From Candidatus Latescibacterota bacterium (lineage in GTDB: Bacteria; Latescibacterota; UBA2968), in NCBI GenBank assembly GCA_022821275.1, contig JAJEDY010000071.1, positions 1 through 62,493 on the forward strand: a stretch of DNA of 62,493 bases. Reading direction: 5' to 3'. Shown here one piece after another: positions 26,607-62,292 of this stretch. Within the stretch, counting starts at the first letter, position 1. Each line of letters begins with the position of its first letter. The notes under the pieces were generated by a model. That model made no database searches and had not been told where the DNA came from. It worked only from the letters and a program-made list of their open reading frames with translations. The translations under genes were made by a program, and so were the position numbers.

Positions 26607-26701
26607 AGATATACTAACGTTTTGATCCGCGAGAAGTTCCTTCCCATCCACCCACACGTAGCACAACGAAGCCGCCAACCGCTGATCGCTAAATATTAGC
26701 C

Positions 26702-26736
26702 TCTGTGTTTATCGGTGTTCATCTGTGGTTGCTTTT
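26702..26736 (-). repeat. 10-bp-periodic stop-codon-linked repeat tract (copy A)
   Basis: The minus strand reads AAAAGCAACCAC followed by three units of the form CACnGATnAA. All 35 bases are identical to 59059-59093. The tract supplies the last codons (KSNHR) and TGA stop of the flippase-like gene. Confidence 0.85.
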
Positions 26737-38668: not shown

Positions 38669-38710
38669 TGCTATATCCTCGTATCTTCGGGCGGGCACTT
38701 CTCACGCCTT

Positions 38711-38742
38711 TCATCTGTGTACATCTGCGTTCATCTGCGGAT
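38711..38742 (-). repeat. 10-bp-periodic stop-codon-linked repeat tract (copy B)
   Basis: The minus strand reads ATCCGCAGATGAACGCAGAT then a related unit. The AGATGA provides the last Arg codon and stop of the acyltransferase gene. Same family as copy A, with CGCAGATGnA units. Confidence 0.75.
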
Positions 38743-39222
38743 CCGCTTCCTGATCAGCCGCGCCGGTGCGCCTCCAACCACCGAATACGGCTCCACATCG
38801 CGCGTCACAACCGCGCCCGCCCCCACAATACTGTGCGCGCCAATACGCACCCCGCCAATAACCACGGCATTGGCGCCAAACCACACGTCATCCTCCACGA
38901 CAATCTCCCGCTTTTGCACCTTTTGTTTCACCATCGGAATATCAATTCGATCGTACCCGTGTCCCACACTGGCAAAAACCACATGTGCCGCCACCGCCAC
39001 ATAATTGCCAATGGTCAAAGGCCCGTACAACACGCTATACGGCGCGAAATGCGTATGGCTACCAATATCGACCCACGCGCCACAGGGATTCACAAAAACC
39101 CCATTGTGAAACGCCACATCATCCCCAATACGCACCAATTCCGGATGCCGAATATCGACCAGCGGATCAAAGTGAACCGACTCGCCAATCGCCTTAAATG
39201 CCGATCGGTCTATCTCTAACAT
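38731..39222 (-). CDS. Hexapeptide-repeat O-acyltransferase (LbH, maltose/galactoside acetyltransferase type)
   Basis: A 163-residue left-handed beta-helix protein. Repeats are visible as VRIGDDVAFHNGVFV, VDIGSHTHFAPYSVLYG, LTIGNYVAVAAHVVFA, IVVEDDVWFGANAVVIGG and RIGAHSIVGAGAVVT. The terminal RKRIRR and stop lie within a repeat tract. These enzymes acetylate sugars. Start 39222 has GAGG 8 bases upstream. Confidence 0.88.
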   Translation of the reverse strand: MLEIDRSAFKAIGESVHFDPLVDIRHPELVRIGDDVAFHNGVFVNPCGAWVDIGSHTHFAPYSVLYGPLTIGNYVAVAAHVVFASVGHGYDRIDIPMVKQKVQKREIVVEDDVWFGANAVVIGGVRIGAHSIVGAGAVVTRDVEPYSVVGGAPARLIRKRIRR

Positions 39223-57395: not shown

Positions 57396-59051
57396 ATGGC
57401 TTACCAACTTCCCGAACTCGCCGAACCCGAAGCACCTGAAAAGAACGAAGTCGTACTCATTGCCAACGGCGACCTGCGCCTATCTGCCAACCAGATGTGC
57501 TGGCCCGCACAAGAAGCAATGGAAAAAACCATCATAGCGGCAATCCAACGCGAAGGATGGAAAGTTCGCCGCGGACACCCCTACAAACAAGACGAGGAAC
57601 ACGGCTTTATCGGATCGCAAAAAGAAGGCATGGCCGTCTTCAAAAATATCCATCCCGACGCCCCCCTCATCGTAGCCGAAGCCGTCTGGCAATACAGCCA
57701 TCACGTGCTTCACGGCCTGATCTCACACCGCGGCCCCATCCTCACCCTTGCAAACTGGTCTGGGCAGTGGCCCGGCCTCGTCGGCATGCTCAACCTCAAC
57801 GGCTCCCTCACCAAAGCCGGAGTTGAATACAGCACCCTGTGGAGCCTGGACTTTACCGACGACTTCTTCAAACGCGGCCTGCGCGAATGGCTCACCAGCG
57901 GCAGCGTCACCCACGACACCTCCCATGTACACGGCGCCAACACCTTCCGCCTGCCCGAAGCCGAAGCGCAACTCGGACAGGCACTGGCCGAACAACTCCA
58001 GCGCGAAAAAGCCATTATGGGCGTCTTTGACGAAGGCTGCATGGGCATGTTCAACGCCATCATCCCCGACCACTTGCTCAATCCCACAGGCGTCTTCAAA
58101 GAACGCCTCTCACAATCTGCTCTCTGGGCAGAAATGCAAACCGTCACAGATGCAGAAGCAAGTGCTGTTCGCACCTATCTCGAGCGCAAGGGCCTCACCT
58201 TTGTCACCGGCACAAACGCCACCGATGAACTCACCGACGACCAGATTGCAATGCAATGCAAAATGTACATTGCCGCCGTACGCATTGCCGATGATTTTGG
58301 TTGCGCCACCATTGGCATTCAATATCAACAGGGCCTCAAAGACCTGTGCCCGGCATCTGATCTGGTCGAAGGCATTCTCAACAACGTAGATCGTCCCCCG
58401 GTCACAGCGCGCGCCAATGGTCAAATCCTCTACGAAGGCGAAGCACTCCCGCATTTCAACGAAGTCGATGAATGCGCGGGCCTCGACGGCCTGATCACCA
58501 ACCGCATATGGAAAGCTCTGGGACAGCCCCCCGAAAACACCTTGCACGACCTGCGCTGGGGCGAACACTATCGGGAAAATGGCATCGACGACTACGTATG
58601 GGTCTTCCTCATCTCAGGTGGCGCACCGCCCGCACACTATATCGACGGGTACAAAGGCACCTCTTCCGAACGTCAGCCCAACATGTATTTCCCACTCGGC
58701 GGCGGCACCTGCAAAGGCGTGAGCAAACCCGGCGAAATCGTCTGGAGTCGCATCTTCGTTCAAAATGACGAACTGCACATGGACATTGGCCGCGGTGGCG
58801 TCGTCGAACTCCCACAAACAGAAACCGACCGCCGCTGGCGTGCCACCACCCCGCAATGGCCCATCATGCACGCCGTCACCTATGGGATCTCCCGCGATCA
58901 GATGATGGCACGCCACAAAGCCAATCACATCCAGGTCGCATACGCCGAGTCAGCACAAGCCGCCAACAACGCGCTGGCCGTAAAAATCGCCATGATGCAA
59001 GCATTGGGCGTCAACGTTCATCTGTGTGGCACAAATAACGGACTTGTATAA
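57396..59051 (+). CDS. L-fucose/arabinose-isomerase-family protein
   Basis: A 551-residue protein matching the FucI-like superfamily. [15 protein letters not shown], the FSHHVLHG-like YSHHVLHGL, and the C-terminal [13 protein letters not shown] are consistent. Such enzymes interconvert aldoses and ketoses with Mn. AAGGAG lies 8 bases before the ATG at 57396. With the UxuA-like gene it may form a sugar-acid route. Confidence 0.8.
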
Positions 59052-59058
59052 AAAAATC

Positions 59059-59573
59059 AAAAGCAACCACAGATGAACACCGATAAACACAGATAAAAGG
59101 CACCCCTCCCACCAACCCAAAGCCCAAAGACACGGCGCAGGCATGGCGTAGCGAGAAAAAAACCAATGCATAATACCGATCAGATTACAAGGGAAATCAT
59201 CCGTTGTGCAATAAAAGTGAGCAATACGTTGGGAATTGGGTTTCTTGAAAAGGTGTATGAGAATGCGCTTGTTATCGAATTGAAATGCGCGGGTTTAGCT
59301 GTTGAACAGCAAAAATCACTGTCTGTTTTGTATGAAGGTGAAGTTGTCGGTGAGTATATGGCTGATGTTGTTGTCGAAGAACTGGTCATTTTGGAATTAA
59401 AGGCTGCAAAAGCCATTGATAAGATCCATCAAGCACAACTGATCAACTATCTCAGAGCAACCGGTATTCATACTGGATTGATTTTGAACTTCGGCACACC
59501 TCGACTTGGCATCAAACGTATGGTCTTTTGACGTCCTATCCGTGTCCATCTGTGTTTATCGGTGGTTGCTTTT
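59059..59573 (+). mobile_element. Candidate minimal element: GxxExxY gene enclosed by inverted repeat tracts
   Basis: AAAAGCAACCAC (59059-59070) and GTGGTTGCTTTT (59562-59573) are perfect 12-nt inverted ends of a 515-bp unit. Inside each end lie CACnGATnnA units of 10 bp (59069-59098 and 59540-59563). The only gene between is the GxxExxY gene. The unit starts 7 bases after the FucI-like stop. A second, damaged copy lies at 60553-61032. Confidence 0.55.
59166..59531 (+). CDS. GxxExxY family protein (PD-(D/E)XK nuclease-like)
   Basis: A 121-residue protein. The name-giving motif is GIGFLEKVYENAL (G-x-x-E-x-x-Y), and YMADVVVEELVILELKAAK is the likely D-x-n-ExK nuclease core. Function in the family is unknown. 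There is no strong ribosome site. It differs from the second copy at about nine of 121 residues. Confidence 0.88.
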   Translation: MHNTDQITREIIRCAIKVSNTLGIGFLEKVYENALVIELKCAGLAVEQQKSLSVLYEGEVVGEYMADVVVEELVILELKAAKAIDKIHQAQLINYLRATGIHTGLILNFGTPRLGIKRMVF

Positions 59574-59605
59574 CGCTTTTCATCTCTTAATAAGGATATA
59601 ATACC

Positions 59606-60550
59606 ATGAGAATCGCGCTCGTCATCCGCCCGTTCACCAATGAAAACCTCCAGACCGCGCTTCAAATGGGCGTGGAAGACGTCGTAACGGTCTTACCCAA
59701 TGCGGGTCCCGTCTGGGATTATCTCGCCATCTTGCGCCACAAAAAGCGCATTGAAGACCAGGGCTTGCGCTGGTCTGTGGTCGAATCTGTTCCCATCTCG
59801 GACACCATTAAACTGGGCCTTGAAGGTCGCGACCAGGAAATCGACCAATACTGTCAGACCATTCGCAACCTCGGCGCAGCGGGCATTCCCGTAATGTGTT
59901 ACAACTGGATGGCTGTCTTCAACTGGATGCGCACCTCAATGACCACTCGCACGCGCGGCGATGCCCTGACCAGTACCTATGATCACAGCGACATAGAAGA
60001 CGCGCCACCCATCACCGACTACGGCGACATCACCGAAGAACGCCTCTGGGAAAATCTCGAATACTTCCTCAAAAGAGTGATACCCGTTGCCGAAGAAGCC
60101 GGCGTCAAACAGGGCCTGCATCCCGACGACCCGCCGCTCTCGCCCATTCGCGGTGTTGCCCGCATCATCACCAGTTCCGAAGCCTACGACCGCGTCATCT
60201 CCTTTATCCCCAGCGAATACAATGGCCTCACCTATTGTCAGGGCAACTTCAAAGCCATGGGTGCCGATATTCCAGCCACCATACACCACTTCAAAGACCA
60301 CATTCACTTCGCCCACTTCCGCGACCTTCACGGCCAGGTACCCACCTTCTCCGAATCCTTTCACGACGACGGCGACACCGACATGGCAGAAGCCATTCGC
60401 GCGTACAAAGCAATCGGATTTAAGGGCGTCGTCCGCCCCGACCACACACCCACCTTTGCGATAGACGAGGAGGATATAGGAGGCTACAACTTCCTCGGAC
60501 GGCTCTATGCGGTCGGGTATATGCGCGGGTTAATACATGGGACGGAGTGA
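59606..60550 (+). CDS. Mannonate dehydratase (UxuA)-like TIM-barrel protein
   Basis: A 314-residue protein. Characteristic UxuA stretches are VMCYNWMAVFNWMR, GLHPDDPPLSPI, HIHFAHFRDLHG and VVRPDHTPTFA, with His and Asp metal ligands. UxuA dehydrates D-mannonate to 2-keto-3-deoxygluconate. It is shorter than the E. coli enzyme, about 394 residues. It is sandwiched between the two GxxExxY units. Confidence 0.88.
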   Translation: MRIALVIRPFTNENLQTALQMGVEDVVTVLPNAGPVWDYLAILRHKKRIEDQGLRWSVVESVPISDTIKLGLEGRDQEIDQYCQTIRNLGAAGIPVMCYNWMAVFNWMRTSMTTRTRGDALTSTYDHSDIEDAPPITDYGDITEERLWENLEYFLKRVIPVAEEAGVKQGLHPDDPPLSPIRGVARIITSSEAYDRVISFIPSEYNGLTYCQGNFKAMGADIPATIHHFKDHIHFAHFRDLHGQVPTFSESFHDDGDTDMAEAIRAYKAIGFKGVVRPDHTPTFAIDEEDIGGYNFLGRLYAVGYMRGLIHGTE

Positions 60551-60552
60551 AA

Positions 60553-60600
60553 ATCAAAAGCAAATGCAACCACAGATGAACACGGATGAACACAGATAAG
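60553..60600 (+). repeat. 10-bp-periodic stop-codon-linked repeat tract (copy D)
   Basis: AAAAGCAAATGCAACCAC then CACAGATGAA, CACGGATGAA and CACAGATAAG units start 2 bases after the UxuA-like stop. Same family as 59059-59098, with a short insertion (ATGCA-like) in the leading part. The matching inverted end beyond the second GxxExxY gene is missing. Confidence 0.8.
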
Positions 60601-60666
60601 AGGTACCCCTCCCACCGCCCTAAAGCATGGAGACGACGCAGGCAGGGCAAAAAAAATAAAAAACCA

Positions 60667-61032
60667 ATGCATAATACCGATCAAGTCACAAAGGAAATTA
60701 TCCGTTGTGCCATAAAAGTGAGCAATACGTTGGGGATTGGATTTTTGGAGAAGGTGTATGAGAATGCGCTTGTTATCGAATTGAAACGCGCTGGGCTATC
60801 TGTTGAACAGCAAAAATCATTGTCTGTTTTGTATGAGGGTGAAGTTGTCGGTGAATATCTGGCTGATGTTGTTGTCGAAAGACAGGTCATTTTGGAATTA
60901 AAGGCTGCAAAAGCCATTGATAAGATCCATCAAGCACAACTGATCAACTATCTCAGAGCAGCCAGTATTCATACTGGACTGATTTTGAACTTCGGCACGC
61001 CTCGACTTGGCATCAAGCGTATGGTATTTTGA
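60667..61032 (+). CDS. GxxExxY family protein, second copy
   Basis: A 121-residue near-duplicate of the protein at 59166-59531, with the same GIGFLEKVYENAL and LADVVVERQVILELKAAK segments. About 110 bases upstream are also related to the first copy, so the duplication covers more than the gene. Differences include Cys/Arg, Ala/Ser and EL/RQ changes. It has no strong ribosome site. Confidence 0.88.
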   Translation: MHNTDQVTKEIIRCAIKVSNTLGIGFLEKVYENALVIELKRAGLSVEQQKSLSVLYEGEVVGEYLADVVVERQVILELKAAKAIDKIHQAQLINYLRAASIHTGLILNFGTPRLGIKRMVF

Positions 61033-61058
61033 CTCTTTATCAGTATCCAATTTTGGCG

Positions 61059-61092
61059 AAAAAAAAGGGACGCGAGTGCTTCGCGTCCCTTT
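61059..61092 (-). terminator. Intrinsic terminator overlapping the end of the toxin gene
   Basis: An 11-bp stem (61092-61082 with 61074-61064) with a 7-base loop and eight T on the minus strand (61066-61059). The plus strand has only a three-T tail, so minus-strand use is favoured. Confidence 0.8.
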
Positions 61093-61462
61093 AATCATGA
61101 TCATGGTACTGCTCGTAGAAATTTTTTATTTTTTTTGGCGTGTTGGGTGATTCGCATAGCCCTCGGCAGATTCTCTGCAACAGATCCGGGGATATATCTG
61201 GTTGATATATCCCATTGCGGAGAATGGCGGGAACCATCCGTTCAGCAAACAAGCAAGCATGCTGATAAAGAACGACGGACTTTCTGATAATAAATGGGTG
61301 GTCATCTGGATGCAACACACAGGTATCATCTATTCCAAAACGCCATGAACTGACATTCACCATAATTATTTGTGGTGGTATCCCTGCGCCGTCCGTTATT
61401 ACAATCCATAAATGACTACTGCCTGAATCGTCAAGTAAGACACATTTCCCCGCAAATGCCAT
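61091..61462 (-). CDS. Candidate toxin paired with a Panacea-type antitoxin
   Basis: A 123-residue protein downstream of the Panacea-like gene. HLWIVITDGAGIPP, CVLHPDDHPFIIRKSVVLYQHA are its most distinctive stretches; I recall a similar CVLNPGDHPF pattern in small proteins beside DUF4065 genes, but cannot name the toxin. AAGGTG lies 9 bases before the ATG. Toxic activity is inferred from position. Confidence 0.6.
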   Translation of the reverse strand: MAFAGKCVLLDDSGSSHLWIVITDGAGIPPQIIMVNVSSWRFGIDDTCVLHPDDHPFIIRKSVVLYQHACLFAERMVPAILRNGIYQPDISPDLLQRICRGLCESPNTPKKIKNFYEQYHDHD

Positions 61463-61475
61463 ATAGTATTGCACC

Positions 61476-62072
61476 TTACTCTATTGTATTGTCCATCATG
61501 TTTTCAAATGTTGCTATGGCATTAAATTCTTTTCTGATTGCGACTAAGTCATCACCAGTCCACCCCACAGCCTTGAGCAGTCTATTCCACTCCATAGGCG
61601 CAGAAGAGTGACCCGGATCATCAAATTCTGGCAAAGAATGAACATATTTTTTCAATTCACTAAACGATTTATTTCCAAATTCTTCATATATCTCACTGAT
61701 TAAATCTATCTCAAATGGGGATAATTCTCCGTCATCTGTATCATTATTGAGTAACCTGATAATATTTTTTTTCGGAAGTGAAAAAGACTGAGGCCAATAC
61801 TCCCCGTCCCACGGGTTCCAAATCAAATGATACGTATGACTCGGCGTGGGTCCCAACGGAAGGTTATAGGGACGATCAAACGTTACGGGATGGCCTCGGC
61901 GTTTCAACGACTCTCTATCAATAAGATAAATTAGCTTAATCAGCTTATACATATCTATTTTGCCACTACTATACTTTGCTAATAAAGCTGCGACTTGAGT
62001 CGCTTTATGCTCTTTGAACCGGGGAACAGCCATCTCTGAAACTGATTCTTCAGTAAAAACTGGAGGCTTCAT
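61476..62072 (-). CDS. Panacea/SocA-like (DUF4065) antitoxin domain protein
   Basis: A 198-residue protein. ALLAKYSSGKIDMYKLIKLIYLI, SLKRRGHPVTFDRPYNLPLGP and SHTYHLIWNP match the Panacea fold, and a helical tail (EIDLISEIYEEFG) follows. Panacea proteins neutralise many unrelated toxins encoded next to them. The start is uncertain; 62072 is chosen, but 62132 and 62033 are possible. The region is more AT-rich than its neighbours, consistent with transfer. Confidence 0.75.
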   Translation of the reverse strand: MKPPVFTEESVSEMAVPRFKEHKATQVAALLAKYSSGKIDMYKLIKLIYLIDRESLKRRGHPVTFDRPYNLPLGPTPSHTYHLIWNPWDGEYWPQSFSLPKKNIIRLLNNDTDDGELSPFEIDLISEIYEEFGNKSFSELKKYVHSLPEFDDPGHSSAPMEWNRLLKAVGWTGDDLVAIRKEFNAIATFENMMDNTIE

Positions 62073-62292
62073 GGTACTGTCCGAGATTATGGATTGATTT
62101 CCACGATTAGATTTGTTCTGAAAAAATATCATATATCAAATTTTATGCAAGCCCTTAAACATTCTGCCCATATCAGAGTGATCGTGTTAGGGATGCCGCG
62201 ATGGCGGCTTTTATGTTGTTTTGCTGACCGCTGACCGCTTGTTTTCTCGCCTTTCATCAGCGAAATCCAAAAATCCGCGAAAATCCGCGATC

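Follow-up and report, generated by a model that had tools for sequence, protein, structure and literature searches.

The 515-bp unit at positions 59059–59573 of the window (the whole stretch analysed, 62,493 nucleotides from a Candidatus Latescibacterota bacterium) is probably a member, in the form that carries the gene, of a mobile repeat family that would be moved in trans by its own nuclease. A GxxExxY gene lies between inverted arrays of short units, and arrays of the same kind that carry no gene are scattered in genomes; together, these features suggest a mobile repeat, previously undescribed, that is run by a nuclease.

Anatomy of the unit and the encoded protein

The repeat, hereafter the tract, consists of units of about 10 nt in a non-palindromic array, and two convergent tracts bracket the gene:

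59059–59101, + strand: left tract, composed of AAAAGC, three units of about 10 nt and AAAAGGC, facing the gene
59166–59531, + strand: GxxExxY gene, encoding a 121-aa PD-(D/E)XK (Cas4/RecB-like) protein
59538–59573, − strand: right tract, the left tract inverted

The left tract reads AAAAGC AACCACAGAT GAACACAGAT GAACACAGAT AAAAGGC, and it is for this tract that the AAAAGGC following the three 10-nt units was noted. An earlier note on this DNA had described perfect 12-nt inverted ends with internal 10-bp units, and this description is borne out: AAAAGCAACCAC occurs exactly at 59059–59070 (+) and 59562–59573 (−), and either end is an array of three units of about 10 nt. The inverted likeness reaches much further, with arms of 44 nt (59052–59095/59537–59580) that are 80% complementary and also a perfect inverted match of 17 nt, and the 12-nt ends are the outer tips of these longer tracts. 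The third exact copy of AAAAGCAACCAC, at 26725–26736 (−), is the solo end to which the earlier note had pointed. Sites with at most one mismatch number 7 against 0.5 expected, a count reached in 0 of 100 shuffles. A search of positions 58000–61500 against Rfam returned no convincing RNA-family match.

The one gene of the unit encodes a PD-(D/E)XK-like protein, as had been proposed. Its sole Pfam match, PF13366 (PDDEXK_3), has an E-value of 8e-42 (142.7 bits, cut-off 22), and TIGR04256 (GxxExxY) is matched at 9e-43 (145.3 bits, curated cut-off 35); both scores thus place the protein within the respective family. The AlphaFold2 model (pLDDT 94.9) was compared with the PDB using Foldseek, and the best match was the Cas4 protein SSO0001 (8e-4), followed by lambda exonuclease, LHK-Exo, MGME1 and AddAB. 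Residues G25, E28, Y31, D67, E77, K79, Q91, N108 and F109 are invariant among 99 proteins, and Y95 is nearly so. The fold and the E, D, ExK and QxxxY residues, invariant in 98–99 of the 99 proteins, correspond to those of RecB/Cas4-like PD-(D/E)XK enzymes, and the protein is predicted to be a minimal nuclease core of the Cas4/RecB/lambda-exonuclease type with an invariant active site. The gene is under purifying selection, with dN/dS between copies of 0.10–0.16. No published function for TIGR04256 was found in the open-access literature searched, though the family is annotated in many genomes; the cognate repeat provides a testable candidate substrate.

Further features of the window include two additions to what the earlier note observed, namely a second copy of the unit and a solo tract at 38705–38744:

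60562–60604, + strand: left tract belonging to the second copy of the unit
60667–61032, + strand: second GxxExxY gene, with a reading frame open from 60586 too; the right tract is absent
26701–26736, − strand: solo tract of the same class as the 59059–59573 unit, missing in six congeners, its outer edge meeting the conserved flank exactly
38705–38744, − strand: CCGCAGAT-class solo tract with the wording of the flanks of the third GxxExxY gene of the genome (L003), missing in congener G005

The second copy (60562–61032), 1 kb downstream of the first and 88% identical to it at the DNA level, retains the left tract and the gene without the right tract. At the corresponding place in the relative G004 there is a derivative of about 380 bp that has both tracts and no GxxExxY gene. 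An ATG inside the tract (window 60586–60594) can open the GxxExxY frame in copy 2 and in Nostoc linckia (L150), and not in copy 1. Copy 2 is adjoined by a SocA_Panacea (PF13274) antitoxin-like gene and an unclassified 127-aa partner (window 61091–62132), and 88% identical copies of this pair occur elsewhere in G001 and G010.

Such an arrangement could conceivably reflect a selfish nuclease, of homing type or akin to toxin-antitoxin systems, for which pre-existing tracts serve as insertion sites or as protection, as the single small nuclease gene, its patchy presence and the antitoxin-like neighbour might indicate. This explanation appears very improbable: a tract split by insertion would give halves in direct orientation, whereas the flanks are inverted; the Panacea pair stands beside one copy only and is found elsewhere without the unit; and PADLOC reports weak Cas4-like similarity for GxxExxY and nothing more.

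Tract populations and their association with GxxExxY genes

The draft genome that contains the window (G000, 5.66 Mb) has three GxxExxY genes. Pattern searches, with the reversed pattern as control, identified at least 63 strict tract-core matches in this genome and 83 in G004, and the control gave 0 in both. Within this one genus the copy number ranges from 3 to 83, and congeners G003, G005 and G006 are without any GxxExxY gene. The 65 distinct tracts that were collected have a sharp outer boundary (AAAA/TGCAACC) and a unit spacing of 10 nt, with variation restricted to set positions within otherwise invariant units. Because the search pattern already limits the first two units to one mismatch at most, it is the third unit that gives fair evidence on conservation; here the ACAC letters are kept in 62–65 of the 65 tracts, and the base preceding GAT is A in 38, G in 14, C in 11 and T in 2.

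Where two tracts on opposite strands lie close together they are convergent in all 32 pairs and divergent in none. The pairs were counted by hand from listings that include G000 and G004, and since these two genomes have some in common, about 29 are independent. Same-strand neighbours occur as well. No bias of tract strand relative to GC skew was evident in G007 (6+/8− in the positive-skew arc, 14+/12− in the rest), a genome with weak skew and ill-defined replichores; for replication-coupled movement of tracts this is a weak test. In the genome represented by loci L021 and L023 (about 1550–1640), further REP-like palindromes (CTGGATCGCGGC...GCCGCGATGAC) are found repeatedly beside tracts.

Whether GxxExxY genes elsewhere are flanked by similar tracts was a check suggested in the earlier note, and the outcome was positive. 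An inverted flank similarity score of at least 20 was obtained for 57 of 76 GxxExxY loci from many phyla (75%) versus 20 of 427 neighbouring genes (5%; P=6e-34), and two of the high-scoring neighbour controls turned out to be GxxExxY genes themselves. About a quarter of the 76 loci have no detectable tract pair. In a set of 80 loci from many phyla, found with a closer protein alignment and biased to the GFLEKVYE clade, inverted similarity of the 250-nt flanks exceeded that of sliding controls on the same contig, where 305 of 4126 windows reach the value of the locus. The tracts are dispersed, as the earlier note had supposed of the ends, in 21 of the 26 genomes reached via named loci, with zero control matches. 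Several other short repeat families are present in these genomes, and repeat-rich intergenic DNA might happen to flank the gene; coincidence of this kind is scarcely credible given the difference between 75% and 5% and the empty reversed-pattern controls.

Within the phylum, the wording of the flanks differs from one protein clade to another: CACAGAT, CGCAGAT, CACGAAT, CACGAAGG, ACGCAAAG, ACAGGATTA, CTACGAA, CAGGATG and CACAAAGG. The more alike two proteins are, the more alike their tracts tend to be (rho 0.39, against at most 0.20 in permutations), and the relation holds when the cross-phylum set is taken by itself (rho 0.27 versus a permutation maximum of 0.22). For genes of different clades that share a genome, the resemblance of their tracts does not exceed background (13.3 versus 13.6). 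Gene and tract class are therefore linked, which by itself does not prove recognition, as joint travel of gene and tract would be enough to give the same correlation.

In five of seven plasmid records with GxxExxY, tract units can be recognised next to the gene, and two have clear inverted pairs. A plasmid origin was rejected, these seven being the only plasmid records and none being predicted mobilizable; so was a phage origin, there being no match among 50,697 phage records and no PHROG. In Sphingomonas parapaucimobilis (L388, 1501–1929) fabD and fabG closely flank the GxxExxY gene, which has a tract only upstream and has possibly been domesticated.

Inverted repeats also flank genes of two other families. 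At L126 (3924–4275) inverted CCCTCACCC/CCCTCTCCCC repeats enclose a DUF559 (PF04480) gene, which may be a parallel case. The 23S_rRNA_IVP (PF05635) gene at L151 (7939–8314) has inverted AATTCAAAATTCAAAATT repeats on either side; such flanks are missing in seven Nostoc relatives of this family. There may be several families of small genes that are each enclosed by phrase-like repeats of their own, with GxxExxY the first to be described.

Site comparisons and a proposed mechanism

Corresponding sites were compared among relatives, each comparison covering one genus. At the first, the 26.7-kb solo tract of the window is missing in six congeners in which both flanks are readable, giving a near-clean empty site; the outer edge of the tract coincides exactly with the conserved flank, and extra sequence is found on the inner side. 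Site B is likewise near-empty, with the tract missing in G005, G009 and G003, and with the inner sequence but no tract in G002. Site C (contig C56 of G000, near 47.8 kb) has a 51-bp insertion in G000 and G004 between TTTCACA and TTTTATGGG; congeners have TTTCACATTTTATGGG, which is a clean empty site for a solo tract. A-run microhomology is seen at the junctions of sites B and C. The target duplications sought at the suggestion of the earlier note were not seen at the 26.7-kb site or at sites B and C, and site C presents just T-run microhomology.

Presence and absence among congeners, with the outer edge at the junction, provide good support for the mobility of single tracts. They also bear on the view that the tracts are binding sites of a host-serving nuclease (acting in repair, fork processing or autoregulation), kept for function and spread only occasionally. 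The purifying selection on the gene, the strict positions and helical 10-nt spacing of the units, and the tight operon setting of some genes, such as that between fabD and fabG in Sphingomonas, would all suit this view. The polymorphism of tract positions among congeners, the spread of copy number within a single genus and the three congeners without the gene do not, and we judge it distinctly unlikely.

The gene-bearing sites present a different picture. At the 59-kb site six congeners carry an oxidoreductase-like gene and G007 has a deletion, and in Nostoc linckia the unit occupies the place of the 23S_rRNA_IVP gene of most related species, with its right end at the breakpoint. Presence and absence of exactly the 515-bp unit, which the earlier note proposed to look for, was thus not seen: neither of these two sites yielded a clean empty site, and both are replacements. 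Gene-bearing units therefore look like replacements, or like old insertions followed by loss. The likeness to a minimal mobile element drawn in the earlier note is well supported for the repeat, since single tracts are present in some genomes and missing in others, their outer end lying at the junction; for the whole unit, we infer it.

The two replacements would also be compatible with spread of the tracts by another enzyme, or by recombination, GxxExxY being a passenger caught between two of them. G007 is consistent with this, as it has about 37 tracts, yet both its GxxExxY genes carry other tract wordings and none of the same class is present. G002 has 40 tracts, the wording having been checked for one of its two GxxExxY genes. 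The counts in these two genomes indicate that tracts remain in the absence of the gene or move by other means. A chance passenger, however, would not be expected to have the observed association, or tract wording that follows the GxxExxY clade across phyla and within genomes, and RAYT, the obvious other mover, is missing where tracts are most numerous. We consider a passenger unlikely. RAYT itself was rejected as the mover, since the tract-richest genome, G004 with 83 tracts, has no PF01797 (Y1) match and intact Y1 loci are without a tract; one weak two-mismatch match near a Y1 fragment is the sole tract match by Y1 genes.

Under the preferred reading, in which the repeat is moved by its own nuclease, the mobile entity would be a tract of about three 10-nt units, spaced by roughly one DNA helical turn, and its outer edge would be fixed. 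The small nuclease whose gene a convergent tract pair encloses would recognise, bind and cut tracts of its own class and, acting in trans, would cause insertion of tract-bounded DNA at intergenic sites; the DNA moved could be a solo tract, a convergent pair or, occasionally, a gene-bearing unit. Given the relatives of the nuclease, its substrate is perhaps single-stranded or hairpin tract DNA. The released DNA would then be joined at intergenic breaks through repair, without target duplication, sometimes via A/T-run microhomology at the outer edge; in some cases sequence would be added on the inner side, or part of the target lost. It is possible, though somewhat doubtful, that a Cas4/RecB-type GxxExxY nuclease of 120 aa alone recognises and spreads the arrays of 10-nt units, making of these widespread single-gene mobile elements a mechanistically new class among prokaryotic mobile repeats.

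Comparison with known systems

The link between gene and tract explains a kind of short intergenic repeat found again and again across phyla; the tract sequences themselves were not found in the open-access literature searched. To our knowledge, the Cas4/RecB-type nuclease fold has not been described as a stand-alone transposase. The window protein resembles the Cas4/RecB/lambda-exonuclease nucleases (PDB codes: 4ic1, 6m9k, 5zyt, 4ceh) in its predicted fold and in the D, ExK and QxxxY residues. It differs from them in comprising about 120 aa, in having two Cys where the Cas4 iron-sulphur cluster has four, and in being encoded by a stand-alone gene bracketed by repeats, whose locus includes neither CRISPR nor recombination partners.

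Insertion sequences and MITEs share with the unit one gene between terminal inverted repeats, and short two-ended derivatives without the gene. The unit differs from these in having no DDE transposase, in the lack of any target duplication seen, in the prevalence of single-ended copies, and in that the gene-bearing form gives no clean presence or absence at the two sites compared.

In REP/REPIN-RAYT systems, a few nuclease genes are flanked by a short extragenic repeat that also occurs in many solo or inverted paired copies without a gene (PMC3116915, PMC2817692). Solo and convergent paired tracts together with a few gene-bearing copies repeat this pattern. The enzyme here is a predicted PD-(D/E)XK nuclease of the Cas4/RecB type rather than HUH/Y1, and the repeat is an array of units of about 10 nt rather than a palindrome. 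The arrangement is, by analogy, best read as RAYT/REPIN-like, yet outside that family; if this is true, populations of REP-like repeats have originated twice, here with a nuclease of unrelated fold.
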